A stretch of DNA of 64,000 nt from Nitrospirae bacterium MYbin3 (lineage in GTDB: Bacteria; Nitrospirota; Thermodesulfovibrionia; Thermodesulfovibrionales; Dissulfurispiraceae), in the NCBI GenBank assembly GCA_002753335.1, contig PEAD01000009.1, positions 1 to 64,000 of the forward strand, written 5' to 3'. A model generated the notes under the pieces. That model was not told the origin of the DNA. It saw only the letters and a program-made list of their open reading frames with translations, and ran no database searches. Below are positions 45,927 to 54,243 of this stretch, in pieces. Numbering within the stretch: the stretch's first letter is position 1; every line of letters starts with the position of its first letter. The position numbers were made by a program, and so were the translations under genes.

Positions 45927-47368
45927 CCCAGATTTGTCATTAGAGATGTGAAGGGAAATGTGCAGGCAGGTCAAAAGACATAGACTTGCCCCATGATCCC
46001 TCAAACCATTGCCGTCTTTTCATAGCCATACAGAGCTTCAAAATGCGTTTGTTTCCCTCTTTGATTACGTATCCGCCATTTGCAAAAATCTTGTACCGCA
46101 TTGTTTTCAGCGTTGGCTGTACTTTTCCGCATACAACCACCTGCCTGAATAAGCTCATGAGATTATAGGCAAGCATGACACAATTCATGGCAGCCTCAGT
46201 AGCGCTGAAACCGTTCACATTGAAGCTGTCTGCGCCGAAATCATATTTCAGTTCCTTGATACGATTCTCAGCATCGGCCCTCATCCGGTAAAGCTTCCAC
46301 ACTAAATGTGCAGGAAGTTCAAGGCTTGTCACAAAACAGCCATATCTGTAATTGCTGATTTCAACATCTTCGGCAAATAGCTTCAGCATTTTCCCTGTTG
46401 CCTTAGGCCTTCTTTCAATCCTTTGCCTTACCATCACCATTCTACGTTTCTTATCCCAGCCATAGGACTCAAAGTTAACTGATGCCACCTCTATGCGTCT
46501 TCAACTTCAAACCACTCCCCATGCCGTGCAAGCATTCGCTGTATTGGCGCATGAAGCCTTGCAGCTATTATATAGGGTATTGGCCGCTCTTGCTTTTCAA
46601 GATACTCAAGTATTGATGTCTGGCAAAAACCACTGTCCGCCCTTAGTAGTCCTATCGTCTTTCCTGCAAGGTTGTTTAGCGTGTCTTGTAGAAACCCCTC
46701 AAAGTTATTTGCTGTGTGTGCATCTCCGGAGCGTAGCCAGAAGTTTGCCACCATTTTACAATCAGCCACAAATGCAAGCAAAGGATGATGTGAGTTTCTT
46801 CCTGGCTTGTGAGGATTGTACCCGCGCCGTGCTCCTTCCTGCTGGCCGTATCTGCTGATTACCGTTGAATCCAAATCCAGTGTGAAGTTGTCAAAATGCA
46901 ACTGCTCAAAAAACCAGTTGTATATTCCATGAAATACCGTTGAAAGGCTTTGTGCCCTGCCATTGTCTTGCAATCAAATATCTTACGTATCACCTCATCA
47001 TGTCGGGTGACTTCCATATGCTCAAATCTGTTAGCACCACACCACACGCTTACTAAAAATTGCTCTATAAGTTGCTCCGGGGGATACCCTCGATTGGAGC
47101 CCTGCTTAGGCAAATCCACTTCCCCTAATGCCTCACGAAATCCTATCTTTTGCAGCATGCGGCTCATAAGGGCCATGCCTCCCCATGGGGTTATCTCTTT
47201 GTCGCTGAAGCTCAGTTGAAGGTCTTTTGCCATGTATGATTTCCTTACACGTATTTTGACTTCATTTGCGTTAGACGCTTCACAATATCTTATAGCCTTT
47301 TCAATATGTTATCAATCACAACCCCTAATGGCGGTCATTAGAAATTATCCACTAACGACTTTTCTGGG
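45927..47368 (-). mobile_element. decayed IS1380-family insertion sequence
   Basis: About 1.44 kb. Imperfect terminal inverted repeats: left CCCAGATTTGTCATTAG (45927-45943), right, read inward, CCCAGAAAAGTCGTTAG. A 5-bp direct repeat TTAAA flanks both ends (45922-45926 and 47369-47373), consistent with a target duplication. The single transposase frame is broken in two places, so the element is probably immobile without help. Confidence 0.85.
45940..47233 (-). pseudogene. IS1380-family transposase, two frame breaks
   Basis: Three consecutive fragments: 47233-46859 (starts MAKDLQLSFSDKEITPWGG), 46973-46491 (DDE region: LDLDSTVISRYGQQEGA, LLRADSGFC) and 46488-45940 (C-terminal: MRADAENRIKELKYDFGAD). 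At the first break the frame runs RYF, then in the next frame VFHGIYNW, with the expected linker missing: an apparent deletion between two GTATTT-like copies. The second break, near 46490, joins EVEDA to IEVASV in another frame (small indel). Catalytic Asp/Glu residues are still readable. Confidence 0.85.
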
Positions 47369-47786: not shown

Positions 47787-50078
47787 TTAATTTATCTTAG
47801 CTACCGGCATTTTCAACCGACTATTAGCCGCATCGGAGAAAGGAAACAGAACTGGAGTCTGGTCTCTATTAAGATCGAGCGAGGCCTTATCAGAAACATT
47901 TGTTTTTACATAGTCATAAAGTTCGCCAAGTTCAATAATGCCGTTTCCATCTTTATCGGCCTCCCCTCTCATGCCCCTTAAAAGATAGTATGTGAACAGG
48001 CCGTGCTTGACACTTTCATAATCAGAGCTAATCTGGCTTCCGGTTGAGGCTGCGATTACGTTTAGCTTTCCATTTTCAAGCGCATGATTTTCTATGGACA
48101 GTATCAATGGTCTCGAGCCCACCTTGGTTACACTTCTGCTTCCAGCGCCTGAAAAACAACTATCGAGCATTACAACCACATTTTTAGCAGGAAGTTTGTT
48201 AAGCGACTCGTACATTCTTTTTAATGGATACAGTTTAGACGGGAAATCAGGATGTCCTTCGTAGGGGACTATGTATGCTTCTTTACTCTCTGCATCAGGT
48301 GTGCCATGACCTGCATAATATATGAAAACAGTAGAATCTTTGCTGATTCGCCTTGGGAGCCAGTCTTCTATATAGGCTTCAAGATCGCTTTTTGTAACAG
48401 ATGTATCTGTTAATAATTTAATGTTATCTCTAGGAATACCGCCCACATTTTCGAGATATTTTGCTACAACTTCGGCGTCCCTGCTTGCATACTTGACAGC
48501 AGGAATGACTTCCTCACGATATTTACTGATTCCGATTACTAGGGCGAATGACTCTTTCCTGATAAAGTTCTTTGTCTTCAATGGAATGTCATCTACATTA
48601 ACCTCTGAAATTATCTCAACAGATTCCTTTATCTCTTTAGGTCGCATTGCGACTTTTAATATTTTTACATCTGAAGACAGATTCTCCGCAGTATCTTTTA
48701 GTTCTATTCTCAGCATTGCTGACTCTGATGGAATTCGGGCGGGCAAGACCGTTTTAAATTCAGCTGTCTTCTTTTCACCAGGTTTGATGTCTCCTACAAA
48801 TTTTTTTTCGCCGAGGTACTCGATAAGTTTTTTATTGCCTGACAAGACAACCTGAAGATCTTTTGCTGAACCTTCTCCTTTATTCTCAATAACCACTCTT
48901 AGAGAAACCTCTTCACCACCATCAAGAACACGGTTATTATTCTGGTCTTTTAATTGTGTTGAAAATACAAGACGTGGGATCTCTGATATAACTTCAACTG
49001 TCTCCTTAGTTTCGGCTCGTCTTGTAGCAATCTTTAGTGTTTTGATATCAGGAAGAGAGAATCCTTGGGCCTCTTTTATTTCAACTTTTATGTCTATCTC
49101 ACCTGAAGGTGTCTGTGGAGGCAAAACAGCTTTATATTCAGCCGTCTTTTTCTCTCCGGGTTTTATATCTCCAATAGACTTTCTTTCACCAAAATAACCA
49201 ACAAGCATTGGGTTTCCAGACAGTATAATCTGAACGTCCTTAGCCGCTCCTTCGCCTTTATTTTCAACCTCTACTCTCAGAGCAGCCACTTCTCCGCCTT
49301 CAAGTATCCGGTTGCCGGATGCTTCGGTGAAAACAATATTTGCAGAGAGAGACGGCTGCAGAAGCTTAGGAGATTCAACTGCAGTTTGAGCAGTTTCAAT
49401 TTTCTGCGGCTCATTGATAATTTTAGAATCCACAGCTGCCAATTGTTTATCCTTAATACTCCCTTCACTTAATTTGACAAGTTGGTATCCGCTGCCGCCT
49501 CCAAAACCGGTGCCAACTACTTTGATAGAATAATGGGCACCCAGCACCTTATTGTCTAAATCTATGTAATCTATAAGCCATTCTGTAGGACTCCCCCATG
49601 GTGCAATTAACATTGTCCCAAATGCCGAATAATTCACCCTAATCTCTGTCAATGACTTTATAGACAAAATCCCGTCGGTCGTAGAAGTATAAAGAGGAAC
49701 TGCAAGCCAAGTCTGTTTATCCCATACCTTGAATTTAATCTCCATATTTTCACGGTCGATATAGAGTATATCTGTAAACCTTACAGAAGTCCTGGTCGCC
49801 ATGCCTGGTAACGGTCCACCCTGAACAAAATACCCGATGCCCTTATTCTCAAAGGTTCTTTTTTCAGGACTGGACTTAAATAATTCATTATCCTTATCTT
49901 CAGAACCTTTTAGGAGATTAAATATTTTGACCAGCAGTTCTTCCTTTGAATCAGCATCCGTCAGATATCTGCATCGTTGATTTTCGCAAAGCGTAAGATG
50001 CTCTACCTTCACATTTTCAAGAGAAGCGCAGCCGGAAAGAAATGCAAACATCAATAATAAGATGAGGACTTTCGTCAT
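47787..50078 (-). CDS. lipoprotein with tandem CARDB-like domains, caspase domain and EF-hand
   Basis: 763 aa. Lipobox LSGCA (Cys17). Residues 20-215 unassigned. Two near-identical CARDB-like beta domains follow (about 240-350 and 370-480, sharing GGE, ENKGEG, AKD and DIKPGEKKTAE blocks). The caspase-fold domain is about 505-755 with His591 (YYAGHGTPD) and Cys641 (LDSCFSGAG). Near the C-terminus DKDGNGIIELGE matches a complete EF-hand loop, suggesting Ca2+ control, which is known for metacaspases in general. Predicted membrane-anchored and extracytoplasmic. Monocistronic; no partner gene adjacent. Confidence 0.87.
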   Translation of the reverse strand: MTKVLILLLMFAFLSGCASLENVKVEHLTLCENQRCRYLTDADSKEELLVKIFNLLKGSEDKDNELFKSSPEKRTFENKGIGYFVQGGPLPGMATRTSVRFTDILYIDRENMEIKFKVWDKQTWLAVPLYTSTTDGILSIKSLTEIRVNYSAFGTMLIAPWGSPTEWLIDYIDLDNKVLGAHYSIKVVGTGFGGGSGYQLVKLSEGSIKDKQLAAVDSKIINEPQKIETAQTAVESPKLLQPSLSANIVFTEASGNRILEGGEVAALRVEVENKGEGAAKDVQIILSGNPMLVGYFGERKSIGDIKPGEKKTAEYKAVLPPQTPSGEIDIKVEIKEAQGFSLPDIKTLKIATRRAETKETVEVISEIPRLVFSTQLKDQNNNRVLDGGEEVSLRVVIENKGEGSAKDLQVVLSGNKKLIEYLGEKKFVGDIKPGEKKTAEFKTVLPARIPSESAMLRIELKDTAENLSSDVKILKVAMRPKEIKESVEIISEVNVDDIPLKTKNFIRKESFALVIGISKYREEVIPAVKYASRDAEVVAKYLENVGGIPRDNIKLLTDTSVTKSDLEAYIEDWLPRRISKDSTVFIYYAGHGTPDAESKEAYIVPYEGHPDFPSKLYPLKRMYESLNKLPAKNVVVMLDSCFSGAGSRSVTKVGSRPLILSIENHALENGKLNVIAASTGSQISSDYESVKHGLFTYYLLRGMRGEADKDGNGIIELGELYDYVKTNVSDKASLDLNRDQTPVLFPFSDAANSRLKMPVAKIN

Positions 50079-53584: not shown

Positions 53585-53622
53585 TTAAATAAAGCCAACA
53601 TAATGGCAGGAGGTCTATTGTT

Positions 53623-54243
53623 ATGAACGAAACATGTTGCAGAGAGTTAAAGGTAGGTCAGGTCGTCCCGGAGTTCAAGATTGAAGCATATGACCCGTTA
53701 AAAGGAGATTTCAGGGAAATAAGCAGCGAATCTCTTAAAGCAAGCGGAAAATGGATCATACTTTTCTTTTTCCCTGCAGCATTCACCTTTGTCTGAGCTA
53801 CGGAATTTGCTGCTCTGGGAGAGCAGTATGACAGATTCAAAAAGATGGGGGCCGAAGTAATTACTGTAAGCACCGATACAAAGTATGTTCAGCTTGCGTG
53901 GCAACGGGAAGAGAAAATGCTAAAGGATGTCAAATATCCTATGGGCTCTGATCCATCAGGTAAGCTTTCAAAGCTGTTCGGCGTGTATGATGAGGAAAAA
54001 GGGCTTGATTTGAGAGGGACTTTTATAATCAGTCCGGCAGGCATAATATTAAATGCCGAGGTCAACTTTTACAACATGGGCAGAAATATCGAGGAGCTCA
54101 TGAGAAAATTCAAAGCAAATCTGCATATGTCAAAAAAGACTCACGAAGTCTGCCCATCCAAATGGAAGGAAGAGGGGGACCAAACCCTTTCTCCAACTCC
54201 CCAGATGGCAGGGAAAGTGCACGAGGCCCTCGAAAAGAAATAA
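53623..54243 (+). CDS. selenocysteine-containing AhpC/Prx-type peroxiredoxin (in-frame UGA)
   Basis: 206 aa if UGA at 53794-53796 is read as selenocysteine (residue 58). The context FPAAFTFV-U-ATEF aligns the UGA with the peroxidatic Cys of AhpC (usual FTFVCPTE). The frame is otherwise open from an AGGAGG-preceded ATG to TAA at 54243. Downstream features are intact: active-site Arg131 in LRGTFIISPAG and the resolving Cys177 in HEVCPSKW, so this is a typical 2-Cys layout with Sec as the attacking residue. A hairpin suited to a bacterial SECIS follows the UGA. Reduces hydrogen peroxide or alkyl peroxides in the cytoplasm. A UGA-unaware gene call would start at 53845 and miss the active site. 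Confidence 0.9.
53810..53826 (+). promoter_or_regulatory. candidate bacterial SECIS hairpin
   Basis: CTGCTCT (53810-53816), loop GGG, AGAGCAG (53820-53826): a 7-bp perfect stem within the coding region. The loop starts 20 nt after the UGA and begins with G, matching the spacing and loop rule for bacterial SECIS elements bound by SelB. Confidence 0.75.

Follow-up and report, generated by a model that had tools for sequence, protein, structure and literature searches.

A predicted selenocysteine form of AhpC-like 2-Cys peroxiredoxin from Nitrospirota, in a clade separate from PrxU

The gene at 53623-54243 on the plus strand of our window, the whole 64,000-nucleotide stretch of Nitrospirae bacterium MYbin3 DNA that was analysed, is best explained as encoding a typical 2-Cys (AhpC-like) peroxiredoxin that would carry selenocysteine (Sec) in place of the peroxidatic Cys, a reading to which, taken as a whole, we assign a probability of about 0.95. 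It draws on the coding anatomy of the gene, a conserved and covarying SECIS hairpin, the Sec machinery of the same genome and the clade formed by the relatives. Judged from sequence comparisons, this clade of Sec peroxiredoxins is widespread in bacteria and recognised by none of the enzyme-family models searched.

Results

With the UGA read as Sec, the frame translates into 206 residues, running from MNETCC through FTFV-TGA-ATEF and VCPSKWK to EKK-TAA, and its sole internal TGA is the codon of residue 58 (53794-53796). The product matches the Pfam family AhpC-TSA with 115.9 bits, and in phmmer alignments to solved AhpC chains (1yf1, E = 1.1e-41), residue 58 falls on the peroxidatic Cys of FVCPTE and Cys177 (54151-54153, in VCPSKW) on the resolving Cys of VCPAKW. 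Thr55 and Arg131 (54013-54015) also align with their AhpC counterparts, the latter with the conserved active-site Arg of RATF or RGTF, and the protein thus has the resolving Cys, Thr and Arg by which typical 2-Cys peroxiredoxins are broadly recognised; its PAAFTFVU follows the PxxxTxxU pattern of the TxxU class, with the UGA at the peroxidatic position. Upstream, the Shine-Dalgarno sequence AGGAGG can be read directly at 53608-53613, and the ATG follows 9 nt further on. An earlier note on this DNA, made from the letters alone, had placed the UGA exactly at the peroxidatic codon, regarded the parts on either side as intact and warned that UGA-blind annotation would lose the active site. The alignments bear this out and, without recoding, the ORF caller does put the start at 53845, downstream of the active site. 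The N-terminal Cys5-Cys6 pair (53635-53640) recurs across the family, whether the form has Sec or Cys: of the 73 rows of our tree, 57 have CC near the N-terminus and 6 have one Cys there, and the PrxU rows lack the pair. The rest of the frame is under purifying selection, with dN/dS approximately 0.06-0.08 where computable.

The UGA is common to many relatives. A scan of genome contigs matched 26 loci, mostly labelled Nitrospirae/Nitrospirota and Thermodesulfovibrionia; Planctomycetes, Krumholzibacteriia and Acetothermia are named once each, perhaps through transfer or misbinning. Among the 100 nearest genomes there were 62 matches, the majority with UGA at the same codon, and in a sample of the phylum, 114 of 396 genomes had a match, about 79 of these with UGA as counted by eye; the gene was not found in the sole same-genus genome searched. 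Among distinct sequences, the peroxidatic codon is UGA in 50 and TGC or TGT in 21, and the full-length UGA relatives are up to 77% identical to the window protein.

Beyond the UGA, two arms of 7 bp (53810-53816 and 53820-53826, plus strand; -12.1 kcal/mol) enclose a GGG loop at 53817-53819, the hairpin reading CTGCTCT-GGG-AGAGCAG. The earlier note had likened this stem and loop to a bacterial SECIS, and its description of them stands, with covariation in the relatives, but the distance of 20 nt from the UGA that it gave to the stem belongs to the apical loop, the stem starting at 13 nt. The bSECIS model calls for a loop of 3-9 nt with G in its first two positions, a stem of 4-16 bp, a UGA spacing of 16-37 nt and an energy of -7.5 or lower (PMC13188914), and the window hairpin lies within all of these bounds on loop size, stem, loop G, spacing and energy. 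No Rfam family matched at the locus. As the fold of the window sequence alone is unremarkable (z = -0.91, not significant), the significance of the hairpin was judged from the relatives. All seven pairs are formed in 44 of the 50 distinct UGA genes, as opposed to 0 of the 21 Cys genes, and 400 draws under a synonymous-codon null gave on average 0.45 complete stems in 50, with a maximum of 3; stem energies of -7.5 or lower are seen in 48/50 UGA genes vs. 1/21 Cys genes. Compensatory pairs are found at 53811/53825 (T-A to C-G, A-T and G-T), at 53813/53823 (C-G to A-T) and at 53814/53822 (T-A to C-G). The loop is GGG in the window copy and GGC in the other 49 UGA rows, with both leading G retained.

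The earlier note had proposed a search of the genome for selA, selB, selC and selD, with the absence of all of them counting against its reading; all four are present. A tRNA-Sec with anticodon UCA scores 71.3 bits, and SelA, SelB and SelD score 617, 369 and 361 bits, respectively. The SelD gene has a UGA of its own in the active-site motif SCAGUAAK, and its product is thus itself a selenoprotein.

The idea that the UGA arose through faulty sequencing or assembly, or as a nonsense mutation in a pseudogene, has a probability bordering on the negligible. The assembly (2.93 Mb in 66 contigs, 94% complete) and the long branch of the window copy (0.38) could be taken in its favour, but an identical UGA is shared by dozens of independent genomes, selection has maintained the remaining frame, and the SECIS is conserved only alongside the UGA, by which the idea is refuted for the family. 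Because the UGA is common to the relatives and the hairpin covaries in the UGA genes only, error, pseudogene and chance hairpin can all be excluded in practice. Very improbable, if a shade less so, is that the UGA is read as some other amino acid or that translation restarts at the ATG at 53845 and produces a short regulatory or inactive protein: the upstream half, conserved in all relatives, is required for the fold, and covariation of the SECIS together with the full Sec machinery predicts Sec.

The Sec-peroxiredoxin PrxU was first described in Eubacterium acidaminophilum, and the earlier note assigned our gene to that family. PrxU likewise is bacterial, belongs to the same fold family and has Sec as the peroxidatic residue of PxxxTxxU; its model (NF040737) is the second-best NCBIfam match of the window protein, and reviews group all TxxU peroxiredoxins as one class (PMC13188914, PMC9312934). 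Even so, ordinary membership of PrxU is very unlikely, albeit the least far-fetched of the alternatives, and the assignment has to be abandoned: the window protein scores 183.7 bits against a curated cut-off of 270, whereas the true PrxU of the phylum, present in 14/396 Nitrospirota genomes and always with UGA, scores 364-425. In the 73-row tree, PrxU, the two AhpC references and the window family fall apart, and the PrxU rows L105 and L107 (364-406 bits) split from the window clade with full support. In those two rows, ATP or VTP replaces the resolving-Cys motif, and they are missing from the 70/73 rows that retain CPxxW; the window clade, in contrast, has an AhpC-type resolving Cys and, often, the N-terminal CC. 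Its SECIS sequence is distinct as well, and the hairpin of the Nitrospirota PrxU (L118-L131) is a different one. Membership of AhpC (TIGR03137) was also rejected, with 189.8 bits against a cut-off of 272. The window protein resembles AhpC in layout, in the catalytic Thr and Arg and in the resolving Cys of VCPxKW, and scores approximately 146 bits to solved AhpC chains, but differs in having Sec for Cys and then Ala for Pro. The comparisons argue for a clade separate from PrxU, of a Sec peroxiredoxin (TxxU) kind that is already known, the clade itself being uncaptured by the models searched. Our literature search of openly readable papers found no description of Sec-AhpC or of Nitrospirota Sec-peroxiredoxins.

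By the tree, the family also includes Cys peroxiredoxins of Nitrospirota with the motif CPTE (L095, L097-L100, L102-L104) or CATE (e.g., L059, L060, L065), most of which have the N-terminal CC, as does the window protein. Unlike the window gene, these have a Cys codon and no SECIS hairpin. The motif of the window clade is FTFV-U-ATE and its nearest Cys sisters are CPTE; the FTF(V/I)CPTE proteins fall outside a fully supported UATE/CATE clade. Within that clade, AU tests reject a single clade of CATE rows (p = 0.0026) as well as a single clade of UATE rows (p = 5e-5), and there has therefore been more than one switch between Sec and Cys. A single gain of Sec followed by several reversions to Cys is what the tree favours, though the exact sequence of changes is uncertain, since the bootstrap is unsettled and long branches come together close to the root. 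A general rule that the Cys form marks loss of the Sec machinery fails: 91 of the 100 relatives have SelA, most of the Cys carriers among them, and the only CATE Cys genomes without it (G005, G017 and G029) are all of low completeness.

The residue after Sec or Cys is Ala in all UATE and CATE rows and Pro in the CPTE rows. The Ala that the earlier note had pointed out in place of the usual Pro is thus no quirk of one gene but fixed in the clade, and among the Nitrospirota PrxU, Ala follows Sec in 10/14 and Pro in 4/14. This pattern suggests a parallel change that came after the acquisition of Sec.

Discussion

The predicted enzyme would destroy hydrogen peroxide. SelB, bound to the hairpin just past the UGA, would bring Sec-tRNA to 53794-53796. 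In the protein, Thr55 and Arg131 would hold the selenolate of Sec58, which would attack the peroxide and be converted to a selenenic acid, with which Cys177 of the partner subunit in the presumed oligomer would form a selenenylsulfide; a thioredoxin-like or AhpF-like reductase could then regenerate the enzyme.

As to its origin, there is in our view an even chance that the UATE form represents a second, independent recruitment of Sec at the catalytic position of PrxU, coupled with a switch from Pro to Ala in the residue that follows, and that several lineages later reverted from Sec to Cys and kept the Ala as a footprint. As Ala dominates in the Nitrospirota PrxU too, it may be favoured by the chemistry of Sec or by the decoding context of the UGA (UGAG rather than UGAC), a thought that we offer as speculation.

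The surroundings of the relatives hint at the role of the enzyme. Around them are homologues of flavodiiron-like proteins (24 loci), Fur (23), desulfoferrodoxin (18), FMN reductase (13), rubrerythrin (11), hemerythrin (9) and the carboxymuconolactone decarboxylase family (6); Pfam served to check these names and gave a weak flavodiiron match on the submitted fragment (26.7 bits, cut-off 27.2). Such a set of neighbours is the oxygen and peroxide defence toolkit of anaerobes. As the gene in relatives often adjoins Fur/PerR, superoxide reductase, flavodiiron protein and rubrerythrin, a role in the peroxide defence of anaerobes would fit. The window copy stands outside the oxidative-stress cluster, next to an ABC ATPase and a DUF255 protein, and has left the arrangement seen in relatives. 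This departure, the long branch, the GGG loop and the lack of the gene in the same-genus genome count against our reading. The window gene may be the only AhpC-type peroxiredoxin gene in the assembly, since the other PF00578 matches whose frames were read (L109-L114 and L116, with L115 outside this count) are TlpA/ResA-like and not peroxiredoxins. Three of these TlpA-like frames (L113, L114 and L116) are without CxxC, reading WATWSANS, WTTWSGRS and WSTESEHS; they have repeat-rich C-terminal regions or lie ahead of them.

Dozens of genomes carry the enzyme, and with UGA-blind annotation truncating its start and dropping the active site, peroxide defence in such bacteria would be under-reported. 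The clade also offers many natural pairs of Sec and Cys forms, with switches in both the active site and the SECIS, and with these it can be tested directly why Sec comes and goes and what becomes of the recoding signal and the adjacent residue.

Elsewhere in the window, three successive minus-strand ORFs at 45940-47233 look, by reading, like a fragmented transposase, and the minus strand at 47787-50078 holds a lipoprotein-like ORF of 763 residues whose C-terminal part, with YYAGHG and DSCFSG, reads as caspase-like.
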